DNA of 60,106 bases from a virus, in the IMG/VR virus record IMGVR_UViG_3300046170_000227, positions 1 to 60,106 of that record; one strand, given 5' to 3'. The position numbers were made by a program, and so were the translations under genes. This document shows, piece after piece, positions 27,018 through 42,401 of this stretch. Each line of letters starts with the position of its first letter. Position 1 is the first letter of the stretch. The notes under the pieces were generated by a model. That model saw only the letters and a program-made list of their open reading frames with translations. It had not been told where the DNA came from and searched no databases.

Positions 27018-28240
27018 ATGAATGAAAAGATAAATAAAATTCCGATTAATTATGAAGATTGGCTTGATCTTGGTCACGTGATAATACCCACTGATCAAAA
27101 AAAAGCTAGGGTCAGTTGGAAGAAAGATGATTTTAGTTTAACGAAAGAAGAATGGAAAAACAATTATTCAAAAGCACAAATAGCACTAAGATTAGATAGT
27201 CATATTGATTTAGATATAGACAATCCTGTAGTTAGAAGATTTATAACACACTATTTAAAAGACTGTGGAGCAATTTATGGAAGAAGAAATAACCCTAATA
27301 GTCACTATCTTTGGAAAGGGTCTTGTGAATTTATACAATACATATTACCAAAAAGTTTTGAAAAAAATTTTAAAAAGTTTCCACATGGTGCAACTCTTTG
27401 CGAATTAAGAAGTGGCAAAGAACGGTATACTATCGTTCCAGAATCTCCTTATGATGACAATGGTGAAACAGTTGAGTGGTCTAACTACAATGAGATACAC
27501 GAGTACATCGGTAACGTAGTTGTAGATGTTAGTAAGATTGCTTTGTCAACTGCTCTTACAATTATATATCCTTCTACAGGTTCTAGAGATATTTATTGTA
27601 CAGGCCATAGCTGGAATTTTAATTAAAAACACAGACTGGACAACAGAACAAATAGATAGCTTTGTTTACAACATTGCTATTGAAGCGAACGATACCTGAA
27701 CCCGAAGAACGTAAACAAAAAGGTACGACAGGAAAAAAGGGAGATAAGCTTTATGGTATTCCAAAATTAGCAGAAGTTTTAAATGTAGATAAAAAAGATG
27801 TTGCAAAATTATTTAGTTGGATTGGTGTTAAAAACAATAGTGAAGAAATACAAGAACACATAGGTGATATAGTTGAATACGGTAGCGATAGGTATTTTGT
27901 AAAAATTTATTTATTAGAAGACGGAAAGAAAATAGAAAAAGACATAACTGTGGAAGGTCCACATTTAATGAAAAAGAAAATTTTTTATGATGAAGTAATG
28001 AAACAAGCAGCGGTCTTTTTACCTTTTATGAAAGAACTTGATTTTGATAAAATGATGATGGCAAAATTTCAAGCCAGAACAAAATCACAAGATTATGATC
28101 CTGAGTCTAGCGAAGATGTAAGATTTATAGGATGGTTTGAATCTTTTATTGATAAGTACAAAGCTTATACAGATAAGAAAGAATTAGCAGATTTTAGTAT
28201 GCCTTATTTTAATATGAAAAATAATAGTTTAGGAATTTAA
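27018..28240 (+). CDS. Primase/polymerase-like protein, two +1 indels
   Basis: Restored length is about 406 residues. The N-terminal part has IALRLDSHIDLDIDNPVVRRF, with acidic DLDID like the catalytic pair of bifunctional primase-polymerases, then SHYLWKG and LCELRSGKERYTIVPES, typical prim-pol blocks. Extra bases near 27606 (G) and 27693 (T) break the frame. The C-terminal part (GIPKLAEVLNVDKKDVAKLF) looks helical. It likely primes replication for the polymerase downstream. Family assignment by motif, moderate. Confidence 0.65.
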
Positions 28241-28241
28241 T

Positions 28242-28472
28242 TTAAATAAATTTGATGAGTTTTTAGCTGAAAAAAGAGTAACTTTAGCAAGAGTAGATCT
28301 TGTTTTAAAATGCAAACGTATTTTAAGAGCTAAAAGATATAGAGGAAAATACAAAGAACAGTCTTGCCCTTCTTATAAAATAGATAACTATAATATAAAC
28401 AAGGATCATTTGATCATAGAAGGAGAAGCACAAGAAATAGAGGAAAGGGTAATAACTCATGAAACAACCTAA
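28242..28472 (+). CDS. Small basic protein lacking a visible start codon
   Basis: An open frame from 28242 reads LNKFDEFLAEKRVTLARVDL, then VLKCKRILRAKRYRGKYKEQ, and ends THETT at 28472, overlapping the helicase start by 14 bases. A TAG lies a few codons upstream and no ATG, GTG or TTG is present; TTA stands where a start is expected, behind AGGAA. The coding-like sequence and packed context suggest a real gene with a consensus error at its start codon. Function unknown. Confidence 0.5.
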   Translation, partial: LNKFDEFLAEKRVTLARVDLVLKCKRILRAKRYRGKYKEQSCPSYKIDNYNINKDHLIIEGEAQEIEERVITHETT

Positions 28473-30040
28473 ATTTGTATCTGGTCCTCCAGGTACAGGA
28501 AAAACTCATTTATTTTTAATAGATAAATATAAAGAATTATTAAAAAACTATGAACCAGAAAAAATAATAATGTTATCGCACACAAATGTAGCTGCAGATG
28601 AATTAAAAGATGCTGTCTTAGATTTACCAGAAATGAAAGAAAGAGGTTTAAGAAAAAAATTTTTTAAATATAAAATATGCACGAATACATTCTTTTTGTA
28701 AAAGCAAGTTATTAAAAAAAGAATTAAGAACGTATGCAGATTACCTTAACTTGTGTACAGAAAATAGTGGTTTTAAAGCACAAAGAGTAACTCAATCAGA
28801 ATTTGATAATGACAAACATAAATTTTTTAAATTTCTTGGAGATGCTTTTGGACAAGGAAGAACAATCAAAGAGCATTGGAATTCTTTAAGAGAGACTAGC
28901 TCTAACTACTATCCTTATAATAACTTTAAAATGATTAGTGAAATGAAAGAAGTTTACGATAATTATAAAAAAGTTAATCAAGTATGCGATTATGATGACA
29001 TGATAAAAGATTTTATAGATCACGCAGTTACTCCAGACATAGATGTTTTAATAGTGGATGAGGCTCAAGATAGTAATATACCTCAGTTAAAAGCTTTAGA
29101 AAAAATGTCTACAAATGTAAAAGAATATTACATGGTAGGAGATGCGGATCAAACTATCTTTGAATTTGCTGGTGCTAATGCAGATTATTTTCATAAACTT
29201 TCTAAAGATGCAGAACAATTAAAACAAGGTTTAAGATGCGGAGAAACAATAAATACATTATGTAAAGAAATAATAAAACCTATATGGGACCATTATGGAT
29301 ATGAAAGAGTTTGGAAACCTGCAAAAAATATTATTGGAACACATTACTATTTACCAAGTCTTACCACAGACTGTTCGGCTATGGAAACTTTATTAGACAA
29401 AATAAAAAATACTAAAGAAACTTTTTTATTTACTTATAGAGGAACGCCTTCTGGAAAATGGGCAAGATCTTTTTTACACTATCACGGGATAGAGTTTTGT
29501 CATGTAGGTAGTGACCCTTATGTTTCTAAAAAAGAAATAAGATGTCATAAAACATGGCCAGAATTTGTAAAAGGAAAACAAATGCCTTTAAAACAGATAA
29601 AAGAATTTTGGAATTATATGGGTCAACAAGTTATTGTAAGAGGAAAAGGAGAAGCAACTTTTGAAGATTGGATAAACAAAGATTATTCTATCCAGGAGTT
29701 AATAGAAAAAAAATATTTACGTGCAGAAAGCCTTGATTTTACTGACTTTTATCACACAAGGATTAAATCAAAAACAAATGAAGAAAAAATTATGTACATA
29801 AATAATTTAATAAGAGATGGAGTGGACACAGAAGGAGAGGCAAGAGTTTATTATGGAAACATACATAAAGTAAAAGGACAGACTTACGATAATGTAATAG
29901 TCGATGAAACTTGTACTAGACGAGAAGACTATTTTACTCAACTGCGATTAAAATACGTAGCATACAGTAGAGGTAGGGTAGATTGTTGGACTGTAGCATC
30001 ACAAGATAGATACACATTAGGGAGAAAATATGACAGATAA
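28459..30040 (+). CDS. SF1 (UvrD/Rep/Dda-like) DNA helicase, +1 indel
   Basis: Restored length 526 residues. Walker A GPPGTGKT at residues 9-16, then LSHTNVAADEL. One extra A near 28683 breaks the frame; restored, it reads TIHSFCKSKLLKKEL (motif Ia/Ib-like). Then LIVDEAQDSNIPQL (motif II), MVGDADQTIFEFAGA (motif III), HKVKGQTYDNVIVDE (motif V) and YVAYSRGRVDCW (motif VI). Unwinds DNA during replication or recombination. Sits between the primase-like gene and the polymerase. Confidence 0.85.
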
Positions 30041-30272
30041 ATCTATATTTAAAGGAATGGGTTATAAATCACTAGACAAGCAACACGGCGGGAATCACTA
30101 CAAACAATTTAGCATACAACCTGCAGAATTTATAAATGAAAATAAATTTTTATTTGCAGAAGGAAACGCTATAAAGTATATTTGTAGACATTCTATGAAA
30201 GGAAAAGAAGAAGATATTAAGAAAGCAATACACTATTTAGAAATGATATTAGAGAGGGATTATAATGTGTAA
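30030..30272 (+). CDS. DUF3310-type protein
   Basis: 80 residues overlapping the helicase end by 11 bases. The core HGGNHYKQFSIQPAEFINEN followed by FAEGNAIKYICRH and DIKKAIHYLEMILERDY is the DUF3310 (SaV-like) pattern, common beside phage polymerases and sometimes annotated as nucleotide kinase. True activity is unsettled. The stop overlaps the polymerase start. Confidence 0.8.
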   Translation: MTDKSIFKGMGYKSLDKQHGGNHYKQFSIQPAEFINENKFLFAEGNAIKYICRHSMKGKEEDIKKAIHYLEMILERDYNV

Positions 30273-32284
30273 GACACCAGAAGATTTAGATTTAGAACGG
30301 TATAGATACAGTTGCAGTTGACTTAGAAACTTACGACCCTAATTTAAAAACAAAAGGTTTAGGTGCTATAAGAGGAGATGGTTTTGTATGTGGAGTTGCA
30401 GTTGCAACAGGTAGAGACACTGTTTATTTTCCAATTAATCATTCAGATACAAATTTATCTTTAGATAAAAAAATTAAATTATGGGAAGCTTTAGATGAAA
30501 AATTATTTCAAAATGAAAAAATAACAAAAGTATTTCACAATGCAATGTACGATGTATGTTGGATTAGAGCTGTGACAGGTAAAAAAATGAAAGGTCGAAT
30601 TGTTGACACAATGATTGCAGGTTCTGTAATTGATGAAAATAGATTTAAATACTCATTAGATTCTTTATCTAAAGATTATAAAATTGGATCTAAGTATCAA
30701 TATGATTTACAACAGAAAACTTTAGAATGGTCTAAAGGAACAATTAAAGATCCGATGACTAATATGCATAAGTTACCTGCATCTATTGTAAAAGATTATG
30801 CCAAGCAAGACGTTGATTTAACTTTTAAGTTATGGAAAATGTTCAATGAAAAATTTGACGAAATATTATACACTAAATACAAAGAAGATAAAAATGGAAA
30901 AAGAATAAAAGATAAAAATGGAAAAGATATTATTATCGAAGAAAAAACAAGTAGAAATATTTTTGAATTAGAAACAAAATTATTTCCTTGTTTAGGTTGA
31001 CATGAAATTTAAAGGCGTTAAAATTGATGTCGAAAAAGCTAAAGCATTTGGTAAACGTTTAGAAAAAACTAAAAATAATATTATAAATTATATTGCTAGA
31101 AAAACTAACATTCGAGTAGAAATATGGGCAGCCTCTTCAATTAAAGCTTTATTAGATCACGAAAATATTGATGATTATACAAAAACACCTAAATCTGGAA
31201 TGCCACAGCTTCCTAAAAATTATCTATCTACCCATAAAAATAAATATTTAAGACTAATAGCTAAGGCTAGAGAATTAGATAAAGCTAAAAATACTTTCGT
31301 AGATGGTTTATTAGGTTTTGTTCACAACGGAAGAATACATGCAGATATAAATCAAATTAGAGGAGAGCATGGAGGAACGGTTACAGGTAGATTTTCTATG
31401 AGTAACCCTAACCTACAGCAAATTCCTTCTAAAGGTTATATAGGCAAAAAGATGAGAGAATTATTTATTCCTGAAACTGGAAGTGATTGGTATAGTTTTG
31501 ACTATAGTCAACAAGAACCACGTATTGTTGTCCACTATGCTATTAAATTAGGTATGGATGGAACAGATGATTTAAAAGAAGAGTTTGATAAAGAAGATGC
31601 TGATTTTCATCAGATTGTTGCAGACATGGCAAATATACCAAGAAAACAAGCTAAAACAATTAATCTTGGTTTGTTTTATGGTATGGGTAGAATAAAACTA
31701 CAAAAAGAATTAAACTTGGATTCAAAACAAGCTCAAACTTTATTTAATACTTATCATTCTAAAGTCCCTTTTGTAAAACAATTATCTAAAGATTTATCAG
31801 ATTTTGCAAGTGAAGAAGGATTGTTGTTTACGGTAGCAGATAGGTTCTGTCGATTTGATAAATGGGAAACTAGAGACAAAGAATGGAACCCTGAGACCAA
31901 TCGTTTTACTGAAGTAAAACTTCACGCCAAAAAAGAAGATGCCATTGATGCTTATAAATTAGAACAAATGGAAAAATACGATAAATATATAGATCCTACT
32001 TGTGAGCATTTTGAAAAACATTATACTAGAGCATTTACATACAAAGCATTAAATAGACTGATACAGGGATCAGCTGCAGATATGACAAAAAAGGCAATGG
32101 TCTTGTTATATGAAAAAGGTATAGTTCCTCACATACAGATACACGATGAGCTTTGTGTATCGATCAAGGATCAAGAAACACGGACCACGGTTCAAAAACA
32201 ATGGAGACAGCAATACCTTTAATGGTCAAGAACAAGGTAGACTATGAATCTGGACCAAACTGGGGTAATATAGATGAGGAATAA
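30265..32284 (+). CDS. Family A DNA polymerase with 3'-5' exonuclease, three indels
   Basis: Restored length is about 672 residues, normal for phage PolA. Exonuclease motifs: VAVDLETYDPN (ExoI), FHNAMYDVCW (ExoII), YAKQDVDLTFKLW (ExoIII). Polymerase motifs: YSFDYSQQEPRIVV (A), RKQAKTINLGLFYGMG (B), HIQIHDELCVS (C). The frame is broken near 30302 (extra T), 30997 (extra G) and 32206 (one A too few in a run); each repair joins conserved blocks, so the enzyme is probably intact in nature. Replicates the phage genome. Confidence 0.88.
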
Positions 32285-32286
32285 TT

Positions 32287-32937
32287 ATGGCTTACTTAAA
32301 TGCAAACATACCGGCAACTTATGCACAAATAAGAAGAGAATATTTATATGATTGTAAAAAACATCATGGAGAAGTTGAAGACTGCATTGTCTTTGGTCTT
32401 AGCGCTCTTACAGGTCGTAGCTATATTATTTCATGCTATTATGGAAAACGGTGCAGTATTTTATCGCCTACCAATTAGCGCGTTTATTCAACAGGGATTT
32501 GAACCATCCGGAGTGCCCGCAAGACGACTTGATGAACTACAGCTCTGGAATTGTTTTTCTTATTATCCTTCTGTCCATCGTTGGGATATATTAGACGGAC
32601 AAGCCGGTAAGTATATCGGAAAAGATAAGAAATGGCACCCAGGAAAATATTTATTTACAGTTGACTTTGCACATCCAGACAGTAATATACTTGACACTGA
32701 TCATTCAGAGATTCCGCACGAACACAAGTGCGCTCACATAATTGCCCTCGATGACGGTAATTTTGCAGCACAACCTAACAACAGATGTATATGGGACATA
32801 CCTTCTTTTACTGTAAGGATGAAACTCCTGATTGGAAAGTGCAAACTACTGAATGGAACGTAGAAGATAGTAGAGCATGGCGGACAGAAGATACCGACAA
32901 GTTCTTCTATGAAATCGAGGAGAAAAAAAATGATTGA
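32287..32937 (+). CDS. Conserved hypothetical phage protein, two indels
   Basis: Restored length 216 residues. It begins AYLNANIPATYAQIRREYLY; an extra base near 32414 breaks the frame, then LFHAIMENGAVFYRLPISAF, YIGKDKKWHPGKYLFTVDFA and DTDHSEIPHEHKCAHIIALD; a missing A near 32815 leads into DETPDWKVQTTEWNVEDSRA. The compensating indels give an uninterrupted frame to 32937. The block order is conserved in marine podoviruses downstream of PolA. Function unknown; His/Asp-rich centre could bind metal. Confidence 0.65.
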
Positions 32938-36317: not shown

Positions 36318-36492
36318 GAAAGTATACATTTGTCCTACCTGTAAAGGTAATGGCTATGTAAAAGTCGCTTGCATTTATGAAAAAGAAGATATGGTTCATC
36401 AATGTTGGGACTGTGAGTCGCAAGGAGAACTTTACGATTATGGAGATGAAGACTTTTCAGATCTTGAAGGGGAAGGAATGTCAATACACTAA
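36295..36492 (+). CDS. DnaJ-type zinc-finger small protein
   Basis: 65 residues. CPTCKGNGYVKV (residues 13-24) is a CxxCxGxG DnaJ-like knuckle, paired with CWDCESQGELY at about 37-47, forming one zinc site. The C-terminus is acidic (YDYGDEDFSDLEGEGMS). Overlaps both neighbours. Could be a chaperone-like or regulatory protein. Confidence 0.65.
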   Translation: MASSKKVKKVYICPTCKGNGYVKVACIYEKEDMVHQCWDCESQGELYDYGDEDFSDLEGEGMSIH

Positions 36493-36932
36493 TGATACCT
36501 GATACTGACAAAGCGTATATTGCAGGACTGTTTGACGGAGAAGGGTCCATACATATAAGACGTGGCATTGAAAAGAAAAAGAAACACAAAGGCAAACCTG
36601 GATACAGACTATCTAATAGTCTGCGTCTAAGCATGGAGATCACTATGACTGACCGTAGTGTTCTCATGTGGGTGCATGAAGTATTAGGTGTTGGAACTCT
36701 AACACCTAAAAAGGTTAAGGGTAAACGTGTAGATGGTACACCTTATCTTAAACAATACAGATGGCGATGTACATTTAGAGATGCATACTATGTGTGTTGT
36801 TTGATATGGCCATTTGCACATACTAAACTACCTAAGATACAACAAGTCATAGAACATTACACACAACAAGCGTTAAAAGGTAATGTAATTTCTTTAGAAG
36901 AGTATAGGATGGTACAAAAAGATGTTAGATAA
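36492..36932 (+). CDS. LAGLIDADG homing endonuclease-like protein
   Basis: 146 residues with a single LAGLIDADG-type motif IAGLFDGEGSI (residues 10-20), then LRLSMEITMTDRSVLMWVHE, TPYLKQYRWRCTFRDAYYV and a C-terminal helix. One motif implies a homodimer. Such enzymes cut one target site and are often free-standing in phage genomes. It sits between small genes near the recombination exonuclease. A degenerate, non-mobile role is also possible. Confidence 0.75.
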   Translation: MIPDTDKAYIAGLFDGEGSIHIRRGIEKKKKHKGKPGYRLSNSLRLSMEITMTDRSVLMWVHEVLGVGTLTPKKVKGKRVDGTPYLKQYRWRCTFRDAYYVCCLIWPFAHTKLPKIQQVIEHYTQQALKGNVISLEEYRMVQKDVR

Positions 36933-37187
36933 ATATATTTATAATTTTTTATATTTTGTAAACCATGTATCAACTAAACTAACAAGTTGGTCCTGGTGTA
37001 AATTATATAGTGATAGGAAAAAAGGTTATGGCTACAGGAAAAAAAAGATAGACCATGGGATGGTAGATCAAGACCGTCTGATGATTAGTATAGTAAAAGA
37101 GTTTGATGAGAATATTTAAAACCTAAAACTACTTCAGAATTACTTAGAGAAGGTTACGAGGAAGAGAAGAAGGATGTTAGAGAATGA
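36922..37187 (+). CDS. Hypothetical protein, frame broken near 37100
   Basis: It starts MLDKYIYNFLYFVNHVSTKL and reaches IVKEFDENI, stopping at 37119. The adjacent frame continues LKPKTTSELLREGYEEEKKD to a TGA at 37185-37187 that overlaps the next ATG, so a 1- or 2-base indel near 37100 probably splits one ~88-residue protein. Amphipathic N-terminus, acidic-basic C-terminus. Function unknown. Confidence 0.45.
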
Positions 37188-37934
37188 AGAAGAGTAATAA
37201 ATACAATTATTTAGAAGGAAAACAAATCACGGATCCTGATACAGGAAAACGTGTCTATGAGATAAGTTCTTATAGACTTCCGAGTCGTAACTACTATATT
37301 AGGGGCTACCAAAAATACAGAATTTTTAACCAAATGGAAGGCCAAAGTCGGTGAAGAACAAGCAGAGCGAATCAAGAATGTTTCTAGTGCACGGGGGACC
37401 AGTATGCATAAATTCCTCGAGTCATTTATCACAGATGTTGGTTACGATGATCTTACAGAACTCGGACAGGCGGCGTTGCCCATGGCCAAAAAAATTATGG
37501 AGATCGGTCTTGCGCCGGTGGAAGAGTATTATGGTTCCGAAGTTACGTTACACTATCCGGGCCTATACGCAGGCCAAACAGACCTTATCTGTAATCATAA
37601 TGGTATGGAAACTGTCGTTGACTTCAAGCAAGCTAACCGTCCGAAAAAGAAAGAATGGATCGAAGATTATTATTTGCAAATTGCAGCATACGCCATGGCA
37701 CACGACTATGTCTACGGCTCCCAAATTAAACAAGGAGTTATCATGGTATGCACGCCTGACCTATATTATCAAGAGTTCAAAGTAGAAGGACCTGAATTAA
37801 GGCGCTGGAAACATGCGTTTTTGAAGAGATTGGACATGTATCATGACCTAATGTTCGATGAGAAAGAAAAAACAACACCGATGAAAGAAGAAGATTTTAA
37901 TGAAAACAATCAACACAAATTTAAAAAATTATAA
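37184..37934 (+). CDS. RecB/Cas4-like exonuclease, +1 indel
   Basis: Restored length 249 residues. MKKSNKYNYLEGKQITDPDT then, after an extra C near 37285 (agtcgta for agtgta), VTTILGATKNTEFLTKWKAK. The PD-(D/E)XK nuclease core shows GLYAGQTDLIC (Asp), VVDFKQA (D-x-K) and QIAAYAMA (QxxxY), as in RecB-type phage exonucleases. Expected to act in recombination or DNA degradation alongside the helicases. The 3' end overlaps the GIY-YIG gene by 35 bases. Confidence 0.8.
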
Positions 37935-38574
37935 AACAGATATAGGTGTTTCTGAATTAGAAAAACAAATAGAAACATTAAAACAAAAAGCAGCTTTACC
38001 TTGTATTTATGCTTTTATAGATATTAAAAAAGAATTTGTTCCTAATGGAGTTCTTTACATTGGACAAAGTAAATCAGTCAAAAACAGAATTCTTAATTAT
38101 AAAGGTAAAAAATCTTCTGAGATTTTAAAAAAATTACAAAAAAGATTTAATCTTTGGGATAATTATTGGGGACAAGATTGGGGAGATGGTGAAATAATGG
38201 GCCCTAATCAAAAACAGGCAGCAGAAATAGATAACCTTCGTAAGTTTATAGAAGACCCAACAAGATGTCAGTTAATAATTAAAATAAGAAAAAAAGAAGA
38301 ATCAGAAGAAACACGTAAAAAATATGAGAAATTATATATAAATCGTTACTATCCTTTTTTAAATAAAATGCCATGGCATCCTTATAAAGCTACATCACGA
38401 AGATATTATATGAATCAAATGCATCCTGAAAAAAATCAAAGAAGTAAATTACCTGTTTATTGTTTACATACAGGAGACGTTTTTGAAGGACCTAGCGAAA
38501 TAGAAATAAGAAATTTAAATAAACAAAAGTATGATTCGAGAGTGAAAGGAATAAAAATAGATTTAAATGTTTAG
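37900..38574 (+). CDS. GIY-YIG endonuclease
   Basis: 224 residues. CIYAF (35-39), LYIGQS (52-57) and KNRILNY (Arg63) match the GIY-YIG core. The C-terminal part includes YINRYYPFLNKMPWHPYKAT and a final region VYCLHTGDVFEGPSEIEIRN like DNA-binding modules of phage homing endonucleases. The start lies inside the exonuclease gene. Likely mobile and site-specific. AT content is even higher than neighbours, which supports insertion. Confidence 0.75.
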   Translation: MKTINTNLKNYKTDIGVSELEKQIETLKQKAALPCIYAFIDIKKEFVPNGVLYIGQSKSVKNRILNYKGKKSSEILKKLQKRFNLWDNYWGQDWGDGEIMGPNQKQAAEIDNLRKFIEDPTRCQLIIKIRKKEESEETRKKYEKLYINRYYPFLNKMPWHPYKATSRRYYMNQMHPEKNQRSKLPVYCLHTGDVFEGPSEIEIRNLNKQKYDSRVKGIKIDLNV

Positions 38575-38758
38575 AAAGATAAGACCAAATAATTTAGATA
38601 AAATAAATAAATTACAATCTATGAAGGTACATCCTGTAGGAGTAATAGGTAAAAGAGATGTGCGTATAAATAAATTAATTAGTAAGTTATATAATAGAAA
38701 GGAATACTATGACGGACCAGACGAGATGGGGAATAGACCAAGTTCAAGTAAAGAATAA
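38567..38758 (+). CDS. Small conserved protein
   Basis: 63 residues. FRKIRPNNLDKINKLQSMKV then HPVGVIGKRDVRINKLISKL and YYDGPDEMGNRP. The core is a conserved block that I associate with small pelagiphage proteins. It starts inside the GIY-YIG gene and overlaps the next gene by 50 bases in another frame. Function unknown. Confidence 0.6.
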   Translation: MFRKIRPNNLDKINKLQSMKVHPVGVIGKRDVRINKLISKLYNRKEYYDGPDEMGNRPSSSKE

Positions 38759-38909
38759 GGCTATAAAATACCAGAAGGACCTTGTATCACGGGCCATGGA
38801 TCATGTGGTCAAGATGGACGAATCAGGGATCACGGATCTTATGATTCAGATTGAGGCGGAATATGAGCGAAAGTATGGCAAAAATAAAACAGATAAAGTT
38901 GTTCTTTAG
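38709..38909 (+). CDS. Small helical protein
   Basis: 66 residues from ATG 38709 behind GAAAGGAATACT. TDQTRWGIDQVQVKNKAIKY then VVKMDESGITDLMIQIEAEY and ERKYGKNKTDKVVL. Mostly helical. Contains GGATCAN repeats (38795, 38827-38840). It is the last gene before the repeat-rich non-coding region and overlaps its 17-bp palindrome. Function unknown. Confidence 0.55.
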   Translation: MTDQTRWGIDQVQVKNKAIKYQKDLVSRAMDHVVKMDESGITDLMIQIEAEYERKYGKNKTDKVVL

Positions 38910-38921
38910 AATAATTCTAAA
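38905..38921. promoter_or_regulatory. 17-bp palindrome TTTAGAAT-A-ATTCTAAA
   Basis: A perfect palindrome with 8-bp arms around one central base, at the edge of the GCGAAC repeat region. The same palindrome with central C occurs at 42253-42269. Size and symmetry suit a dimeric DNA-binding protein. Confidence 0.5.
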
Positions 38922-38924
38922 TAA

Positions 38925-39250
38925 TTTTGCGAACCCTAGGGTTCGGGAAATGCCCAAAAGTGCGAACTTAGGGTTCGGGAGCCTTCGCACTTTTTGTAAA
39001 AAACAGGTCAATTGTGTCCAAATTGTGTTCAAATATGGCCTTTGCCACATTTCTGCCACAAAAGTGCGAACCCTACCCCCTGTTTTGCGAACCCATTTTA
39101 CGCCAATGCGAAGCCTTGCGAACTTAGGGTTCGGGGCTTACTATTCAAGTATACCAACACTAATAGCTCAATTTTTAAGTTTTGCGAACTTTCAAAAATA
39201 TTTTTTGTCTAGCGCATGAAAAAATATAATTTGTCATATAGGGTTCGCAG
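38925..39250. repeat. Non-coding GCGAAC iteron-like region, origin candidate
   Basis: About 330 bp with no convincing gene. GCGAA units occur at about 38929, 38962, 39066, 39087, 39108, 39118 and 39184, with inverted TTCG(C) partners at 38945, 38984 and 39244. A 19-nt unit starting TGCGAACTTAG and ending GGGTTCGGG is identical at 38961 and 39117. CGAACCCTAGGGTTCG (38930-38945) is a perfect palindrome. An AT-rich stretch follows (39170-39240). This layout resembles iteron origins with an unwinding element, but no initiator gene was identified. Confidence 0.5.
38956..38995. terminator. Possible bidirectional terminator in repeat region
   Basis: AAAAGTGCGAA (38956-38966) pairs with TTCGCACTTTT (38984-38994), an 11-bp perfect stem ending in T-rich sequence on the plus strand and an equivalent on the minus strand. 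It lies 47 bases after the stop of the last gene, so it may end the replication/accessory operon. It is built from the repeat unit, so dual function is possible. Confidence 0.55.
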
Positions 39251-39264
39251 ATGTAAAAGAAGTT

Positions 39265-39582
39265 ATGCCTAAAAAGAAATCTAGACGTATAAATAGCTAT
39301 AACAAACCCAAAGCTGGTCAAAGCAGGCAGTTAAGTTTCCATACAAGCGTGTACGTATAGATTGGATTGACATCATCACAGAAGGTGGCTGGGGCACAGG
39401 TAAAAGAGTTTACTGATATGAAACTAGCTACACCTGTAAGTGAAGGTTGGCTGTTTTCTAAAGACAAAGATACTGTGAGAATATTTGCAGGTTATGATGT
39501 TGATGATGATGGTACTATTACTTTTTCGGAGCGATCGGTTTTTCCAACGTCTTGTGTGAAGAAGATAACGAAGATTCATTAG
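39265..39582 (+). CDS. Hypothetical protein, two indels
   Basis: Restored length ~105 residues. It opens MPKKKSRRINSYNKPKAGQS; a missing G near 39325 and an extra A near 39405 interrupt it. Repaired, it reads AVKFPYKRVRIDWIDIITEG, GTGKEFTDMKLATPVSEGWL and FSKDKDTVRIFAGYDVDDDG. This resembles small SH3-like phage proteins that modify transcription or translation, but that is weak. The 3' end overlaps the small terminase gene tail to tail by 65 bases. Confidence 0.5.
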
Positions 39583-40039
39583 GTGTCACATTTATCAGAG
39601 ATCCGTAATCGTCTATTATCTGTTTCATTTTTGCTTCTAGCTCTTGTTCTGATAGGTCCTCTAGTTTTCCTGTTTTTATTATCTTTCTATCTATGTATAG
39701 TCCTGCTGCTTTTCCTCTGTTTGCTTCCGCGTTCACTGCTGAAGAGAATGATCCTTTTTTTAAAGCGGCCTCTCTTAGTCTAGCAAGTTCTGCAATGTGT
39801 CCTTCATAAGATACCTCATGTTTTCTAATTCTCTCTTCTCTCAACTGTCCTAAATATTTTGCAACTAATGGTGAGAGTCTTGGGTTGTTTAATTCTGATC
39901 CTTCTTGTCTTGCACGTTTAGGACTGTAGCCAGCAGCGATAGCCGCTTCTGTTTGTGTCATTGGTCCTTCCGGTCCACCGAATACTAAGAACTCAGCAAA
40001 ACGTTGTTGCATTTCTGTTAATCTTTTTGGAACACCCAT
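39518..40039 (-). CDS. terS: Terminase small subunit
   Basis: 173 residues on the minus strand. LTEMQQRFAEFLVFGGPEGP, TQTEAAIAAGYSPKRARQEG (helix-turn-helix) and ALKKGSFSSAVNAEANRGKA then AGLYIDRKI form the DNA-recognition and oligomerisation blocks of phage small terminases. It selects phage DNA for packaging with the large subunit at 45091, which is on the other strand 5 kb away. The promoter places the transcript start at about its ATG, so the message may be leaderless. Confidence 0.85.
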   Translation of the reverse strand: MGVPKRLTEMQQRFAEFLVFGGPEGPMTQTEAAIAAGYSPKRARQEGSELNNPRLSPLVAKYLGQLREERIRKHEVSYEGHIAELARLREAALKKGSFSSAVNAEANRGKAAGLYIDRKIIKTGKLEDLSEQELEAKMKQIIDDYGSLINVTPNESSLSSSHKTLEKPIAPKK

Positions 40040-42197: not shown

Positions 42198-42401
42198 GCG
42201 CTGCTTGCGGCTTGAGGCTTGGCGCTCTCTGCTCTTCTTCTTTAGAATGATTTTTAGAATCATTCTAAACTGGCAATTTACCCGTTGCGCCTCCTGATCA
42301 GGGAACTCGGCGCACCATGGTGTTACACACATTGCTACCTTGCGGATCATCGCTAACGTACAGGGAAATGCCAGAGGCAAGATGTGGACGCTGGTGTACA
42401 C
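42177..42401 (-). CDS. Doubtful minus-strand reading frame
   Basis: 74 codons from a GTG at 42401, with internal Met codons (AMIRKVAMCVTPWCAEFPDQ) and a heptamer-derived end. No ribosome site is seen, it contains a 12-bp hairpin (42241-42269), and it runs into the promoter at 42169. Either a poorly conserved small gene or part of a structured leader. Kept because it is the only long frame here. Confidence 0.25.
   Translation of the reverse strand: MYTSVHILPLAFPCTLAMIRKVAMCVTPWCAEFPDQEAQRVNCQFRMILKIILKKKSRERQASSRKQRLTMAQG
42203..42224. repeat. Short heptamer array, three units
   Basis: CTTGCGG, CTTGAGG, CTTGGCG at 42204-42224, the third locus of the CTTGNNG family, next to the promoter at 42169. 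As at 41744, the array sits beside a minus-strand TTGACA box. Confidence 0.6.
42241..42269. promoter_or_regulatory. Palindrome and 12-bp hairpin
   Basis: TTTAGAATGATT (42241-42252) pairs with AATCATTCTAAA (42258-42269) around five bases. The same stretch contains the palindrome TTTAGAAT-C-ATTCTAAA (42253-42269), identical in arms to 38905-38921. Could be an operator (one and a half sites) or a transcript hairpin. Confidence 0.5.

Follow-up and report, generated by a model that had tools for sequence, protein, structure and literature searches.

The repeats of the spacer

What is the role of a short, non-coding stretch of viral DNA in which one six-letter word, GCGAAC, recurs again and again? 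The stretch lies in a 60,106-base virus record (the whole of which was analysed, and is referred to below as the window) that is kin to Pelagibacter phage HTVC027P, an ocean SAR11-type phage. The origin-like module spans ~350 bp (38910–39264). It is bordered on the left by a 66-aa open reading frame (38709–38909, plus strand) and on the right by a homologue of gp28 (39265–39582, plus strand), which is followed by the gene for the small terminase subunit, TerS (39518–40039, minus strand). An earlier note on this DNA described the region as iteron-like and as a possible replication origin.

The repeats are far from a chance occurrence: within 326 bp, CGAAC and its complement GTTCG add up to 10 copies, whereas 1000 dinucleotide-shuffled sequences averaged 0.42 and never exceeded 3. 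Nowhere else in the window do repeats cluster so densely, and the 330-bp stretch richest in GCGAAC across all 60 kb begins at position 38921. Seven direct GCGAA units are present, exactly as first described (38929, 38962, 39066, 39087, 39108, 39118 and 39184), with GCGAAC in six of the seven. Inverted copies also exist, but their number had been given as three, while we count either two (as TTCGC, at 38984 and 39244) or four (as GTTCG, at 38941, 38973, 39129 and 39243).

Read from left to right, the module opens with a GCGAAC iteron combined with the 16-bp palindrome CGAACCCTAGGGTTCG (38929–38945, the palindrome itself at 38930–38945). The first copy of a perfect 19-nt direct repeat, TGCGAACTTAGGGTTCGGG, with paired words CGAAC-N5-GTTCG, follows at 38961–38979 (plus strand), and the second copy at 39117–39135 (plus strand); palindrome and repeat are both where the note had placed them. 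The first copy sits within a long hairpin, AAAAGTGCGAA...TTCGCACTTTT (38956–38994). This element had been called a symmetrical terminator; it does fold (-15.5 kcal/mol, z -2.0), but does not score in an intrinsic-terminator scan, and could be either a bidirectional terminator or a pair of iterons. Further iterons on the plus strand begin at 39066 and 39087 (39066–39071 and 39087–39092, the next being 21 bp on in each case), and then comes a degenerate GCGAAG (39108–39113, the next 10 bp on). Beyond the second 19-nt copy lies the sequence CTATTAGTGTTGGTATAC (39149–39166, read on the minus strand), a core that is common to spacers with unrelated words. One more GCGAAC lies on the opposite side of this core (39184–39189, plus strand), within an AT-rich segment (39167–39264) that is a candidate unwinding region. 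In the AT-rich tract of the original description (~39150–39260) the enrichment is only mild (z about +1). An inverted iteron, GTTCGC (39243–39248), closes the segment immediately before gp28.

The surroundings of the spacer offered several observations of their own. The palindrome TTAGAATAATTCTAA at the left border (38906–38920) has a counterpart, TTAGAATGATTCTAA, next to spacers belonging to several word types. Just upstream of the spacer, GIY-YIG is matched weakly (E 0.007) and a LAGLIDADG endonuclease is encoded (37900–38574 and 36492–36932); the GIY-YIG segment has no counterpart in four compared genomes. No tRNA, as might indicate an attP site, was found anywhere in the window, and no Rfam family matched within the spacer. 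Elsewhere, the Rfam model Flavobacterium-1 RNA (RF02976) matches the window at 42280–42399 (minus strand) and three related contigs (L001, 17753–17873; L007, 5775–5890; L023, 2599–2718). RF02976 is found in this pelagiphage group, isolate HTVC027P included; behind the family name there is thus a phage RNA.

Homologous spacers carry different words around a common core

Relatives were gathered by TerS-based and pattern searches of viral contigs, yielding ~140 distinct spacers. Word types were called by eye from the repeated words in these spacers, and then used in the tests below. The homologous spacers share position and layout, while the repeated word differs from one phage type to another. 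The type A word, that of the window, is GCGAAC; type C has GGT(A/G)TCGCA, type D AAGTGTACTTT, type E ATGGAACTTT, type F CGAGGGGTA, type G TGTTACAA and TGCTACAA, type H GTGTCTCAA, type I GTGTTACAA, type J GTGTGACTG and type K ACGTTACA. Others exist, and GGTATCGCA is among the repeated words found in the spacers of other phage types. Within a spacer all copies of the word switch together, while pieces of the backbone persist. In most types tested, the best 8-mer exceeded shuffled controls, with a small margin in the degenerate types D and E.

Two further features are shared. Firstly, a core, CTAnAAGTGTTGGTATA, is found flanked by repeats in the homologous spacers: with up to 4 mismatches it is present in 99 of 213 spacers (some of these loci being copies of the same contig), whereas randomised spacers gave 3. 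The core includes TTGGTAT and frequently GTG, and lies on the minus strand in types A and C and on the plus strand in types D, F and H. Secondly, the several short words of these non-coding stretches are helically phased. Across many unrelated words, neighbouring copies on the same strand are predominantly spaced by 10–11, 20–22, 31–34 or 63–66 bp, that is, mostly by 10–11 bp and multiples thereof; the type A spacings are 10, 21, 31, 33 and 66 bp. Several types have a pair of words ~8 bp apart ahead of the core and a further three or four after it, at 10–11 bp intervals.

In a more distant phage (L532), the core occurs as an inverted pair, AAGTGTTGTATACCAACACTT. The core was also considered as an IHF site; by eye, the HTVC027P core matches the IHF consensus, but most other cores do not, and the idea was dropped.

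Word type follows the replication block

Contigs reaching from the primase gene to TerS were compared gene by gene against word type. The word type is linked to a block of three replication genes lying 8–12 kb away, and not to the genes beside the spacer or between the two. In the window these three genes, all on the plus strand, encode a primase-polymerase (PrimPol; 27018–28469), a UvrD-like helicase (28459–30034) and a family A DNA polymerase (PolA; 30296–32272). All three are frameshifted in the window, as are a 216-aa gene, the exonuclease and gp28 (27018–32922, 37184–37901 and 39265–39582); each is intact in relatives, the primase with 483 aa in L113, which suggests that the frameshifts are indel errors in the record.

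Among contigs of the window's group, PolA, helicase and primase each separate same-word from different-word pairs with an AUC of 1.00, while the exonuclease, encoded between block and spacer, reaches 0.77 and TerS, next to the spacer, 0.67 (4–6 same-word and 23–30 different-word pairs). Over all contigs the values are 0.980 (primase), 0.992 (helicase), 0.945 (PolA), 0.974 (exonuclease) and 0.768 (TerS), every one of them inflated by shared ancestry; within the larger HTVC027P group the exonuclease, too, discriminates well between types, partly through that ancestry. A single pair of contigs illustrates the pattern: between L113 (type A) and L362 (type D) the exonucleases are 90% identical, while the helicases share 27% and the PolA proteins 49%, and BLAST detects no similarity between the primases.

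The same exchange can be seen at the DNA level between the window and a type D genome (G003). The two are 81–97% identical at 24–27 kb, then have nothing alignable from 27 to 30 kb and just short pieces up to 32 kb. Identity of 78–94% resumes over most of 32–38 kb, the spacer is replaced, and beyond it the sequences are again 87% identical. Small accessory genes also differ (at 33, 35 and 38 kb), and outside 24–40 kb the tail genes and 46.5–50 kb differ. Accessory genes aside, what has been exchanged is two pieces, the replication block and the spacer, a pattern shown for 24–40 kb but not genome-wide.

Among contigs fetched afterwards, L525/L526 (one sequence) and L527 pair C-type primases with C-type words, and L529 pairs an HTVC027P-type primase with TGGAACA words, as in L351. 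The coupling of iteron identity to the replication proteins is broken by two contigs. G008/L524 (1–13310) combines D-like words with primase, helicase and PolA genes of type C. This scaffold is interrupted by a gap of 10 Ns, and the stretch in which it closely matches another contig stops near 6.5 kb; it may be either a true recombinant or a scaffold chimera. In L084 (1–5852) an HTVC027P-type helicase is found close to a type A spacer, PolA and exonuclease are missing, and the contig is likely chimeric.

These linkages bear on two other explanations of the spacer. The small terminase gene adjoins it, and the cosB site of lambda-type phages also contains repeated R sites, so that the spacer could be a packaging (pac or cos) site for the neighbouring terminase. 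We consider this very improbable: phages whose words are unrelated have TerS proteins that are 82–96% identical, within the window's group TerS does not follow word type (AUC 0.67), and the large terminase gene region is also alignable between types A and D. The second explanation, which we regard as unlikely though less so than packaging, is transcriptional control, with the words acting as operators for a phage regulator at the gp28 promoter, or with the spacer insulating early from late genes. Such a role would suit the position of the last word, directly upstream of gp28, and the presence of terminator-like hairpins; moreover, in temperate phages repeated operators also switch in concert with their repressors. 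However, the word type goes with enzymes of DNA replication, the block yielded no regulator gene linked to type, and a scan of the spacer gave no sigma-70-type promoter above chance. Up to ~10 phased copies around a conserved core also fit an origin better.

The spacer as a probable replication origin

The proposal of an origin gains support from the conserved layout, the helical phasing of the repeats and the linkage of the word to replication genes and not to the terminase. We infer that the spacer is probably a replication origin with switchable iterons, which is the best reading of the locus.

Two checks had been suggested alongside that proposal: a change in GC skew near the site, and conservation of the repeats in related phages. 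The skew does not change sign at the spacer; it is positive throughout the window except for a flat stretch at 39–43 kb, where some genes are on the other strand. All four complete genomes examined have positive skew throughout, and the skew switch of a bidirectional origin is seen neither in these nor in the window. Since the genes run one way and skew follows gene direction, skew is uninformative as an origin test here. As for conservation, the exact word recurs in just a minority of relatives, but the architecture is conserved. Neither check therefore decides the matter.

A candidate reader of the origin

No initiator gene had been evident near the repeats, and indeed there is none; a good candidate, the PrimPol gene at the head of the replication block, lies 11–12 kb upstream, a distance that tells against this reading. 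The primases of types D and E and of HTVC027P match the Pfam AEP-TOTE family, and thus carry an AEP catalytic domain. The type A primase has no Pfam family match, and is tied to the others by gene position, apparent AEP motifs (DxDxD, SxH) and C-terminal profile similarity: the two primase family profiles align over residues 285–436 (E 1e-4, 57% probability). A structural model of an HTVC027P-type primase (a relative's protein; pLDDT 84) matches the PrimPol domain of CAPP (Z 20), while the type A model is of lower quality (pLDDT 70). At the C-terminus, each of the two models has a winged-helix-like domain. For the HTVC027P-type model, the match of this domain to oriT-bound TcpK scores Z 8.7, and a weaker one to SaPI Rep scores Z 6.8. 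For the type A model the matches are SCCmec Cch (Z 6.8) and TcpK (Z 5.8). A Z under 8 can mean no more than a common arrangement, and both type A matches, under 7, are weak. Foldseek returned nothing significant for the type A model, whose domain matches came from a second look alone, and the type A profile matched no sequence in the PDB. These models support, rather than prove, a predicted DNA-binding role for the C-terminal winged helix of the PrimPol. For AEP proteins that carry a C-terminal winged helix, a role in origin recognition has been proposed (PMC5862659).

Whether the PrimPol reads the iterons is, in our judgement, about an even call. Sliding identity along the primases isolated no single clear specificity region; the C-terminal end diverges fastest, both between types A and N and within type C. 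The likely recognition helix of the type A primase is conserved between types A and C, which counts against the PrimPol as reader. Nor does linkage point to the primase in particular, given that helicase and PolA move with it. The spacer might accordingly be an origin that is read specifically by the helicase, by PolA or by an unrecognised protein, the PrimPol being confined to priming. The three genes are inherited as one block with equal linkage, and the helicase AUC over all pairs is slightly above that of the primase (0.992 versus 0.980); nevertheless, a winged helix of the origin-binding kind is predicted in the PrimPol alone, and UvrD-type helicases and PolA are not known to bind iterons. 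We therefore hold this alternative to be possible, but the less favoured one.

With the PrimPol as reader, replication could proceed as follows: (i) the helically phased words would serve as iterons for the phage-encoded initiator, recruiting the PrimPol through its C-terminal winged-helix domain; (ii) the core and its adjacent AT-rich side would be the place of strand opening and of the start of priming, carried out by the catalytic domain; and (iii) the UvrD-like helicase and PolA would then build and extend the forks. The phage PrimPol NrS-1 initiates sequence-specifically, at TTTGGTTA or GTG (PMC8718748). The TTGGTAT and frequent GTG of the core resemble these start sites, an analogy that we take as a lead only to the role of the core.

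Significance and comparison with known systems

No replication origin of a SAR11 phage was described in the literature searched. It is conceivable, though we advance this tentatively, that pelagiphages draw on a hypervariable repertoire of replication specificities, with over a dozen types of origin word, each tied to a PrimPol-helicase-PolA block of its own. Word and block would be swapped together as a two-piece cassette, and the PrimPol would both read the origin and start synthesis de novo at the core. If so, these phages would fall into replication incompatibility groups, perhaps driven by competition during co-infection or by origin-stealing satellites. SAR11 phages are among the most abundant viruses of the ocean, and for many of their types in parallel an origin and its likely reader can be predicted from the sequence; the naturally occurring pairs of word and primase make origin recognition directly testable. 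The pairing of word and block also suggests a reason for the replication genes moving as a unit in these phages.

On the best reading, the spacer would function as known iteron origins do. What sets it apart would be that a separate PrimPol is the likely reader, that origin and reader lie far from each other, and that one phage group has so many specificities. The Rep and Cch initiators of SaPI and SCCmec elements act at iteron origins and bind DNA through a C-terminal winged helix; alignments link the type A model to Cch and, weakly, the HTVC027P-type model to SaPI Rep. However, those initiators are AAA+ helicases encoded beside the origin, whereas the PrimPol here has no fused helicase and its gene is 8–12 kb away. 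In phage P4 (ori, crr), the alpha protein bears a primase and recognises short repeats, in either orientation, with its C-terminal domain. It unites primase, helicase and origin-binding functions, while primase and UvrD-like helicase are separate genes here. Lambda ori combines iterons with an AT-rich region, and origin and initiator O change together between phages, but the lambda iterons lie inside the O gene and O, unlike the PrimPol candidate, is not a primase. NrS-1 PrimPol and pRN1 ORF904 are AEP PrimPols with specific template starts (TTTGGTTA, GTG); the accessible part of the source describes for them no iteron arrays of switching specificity such as those seen here (PMC8718748). A further comparison is with the pelagiphages HTVC027P and HTVC023P: in HTVC027P, gene order and spacer architecture are those of the window, but the word is TGTTACAA instead of GCGAAC.
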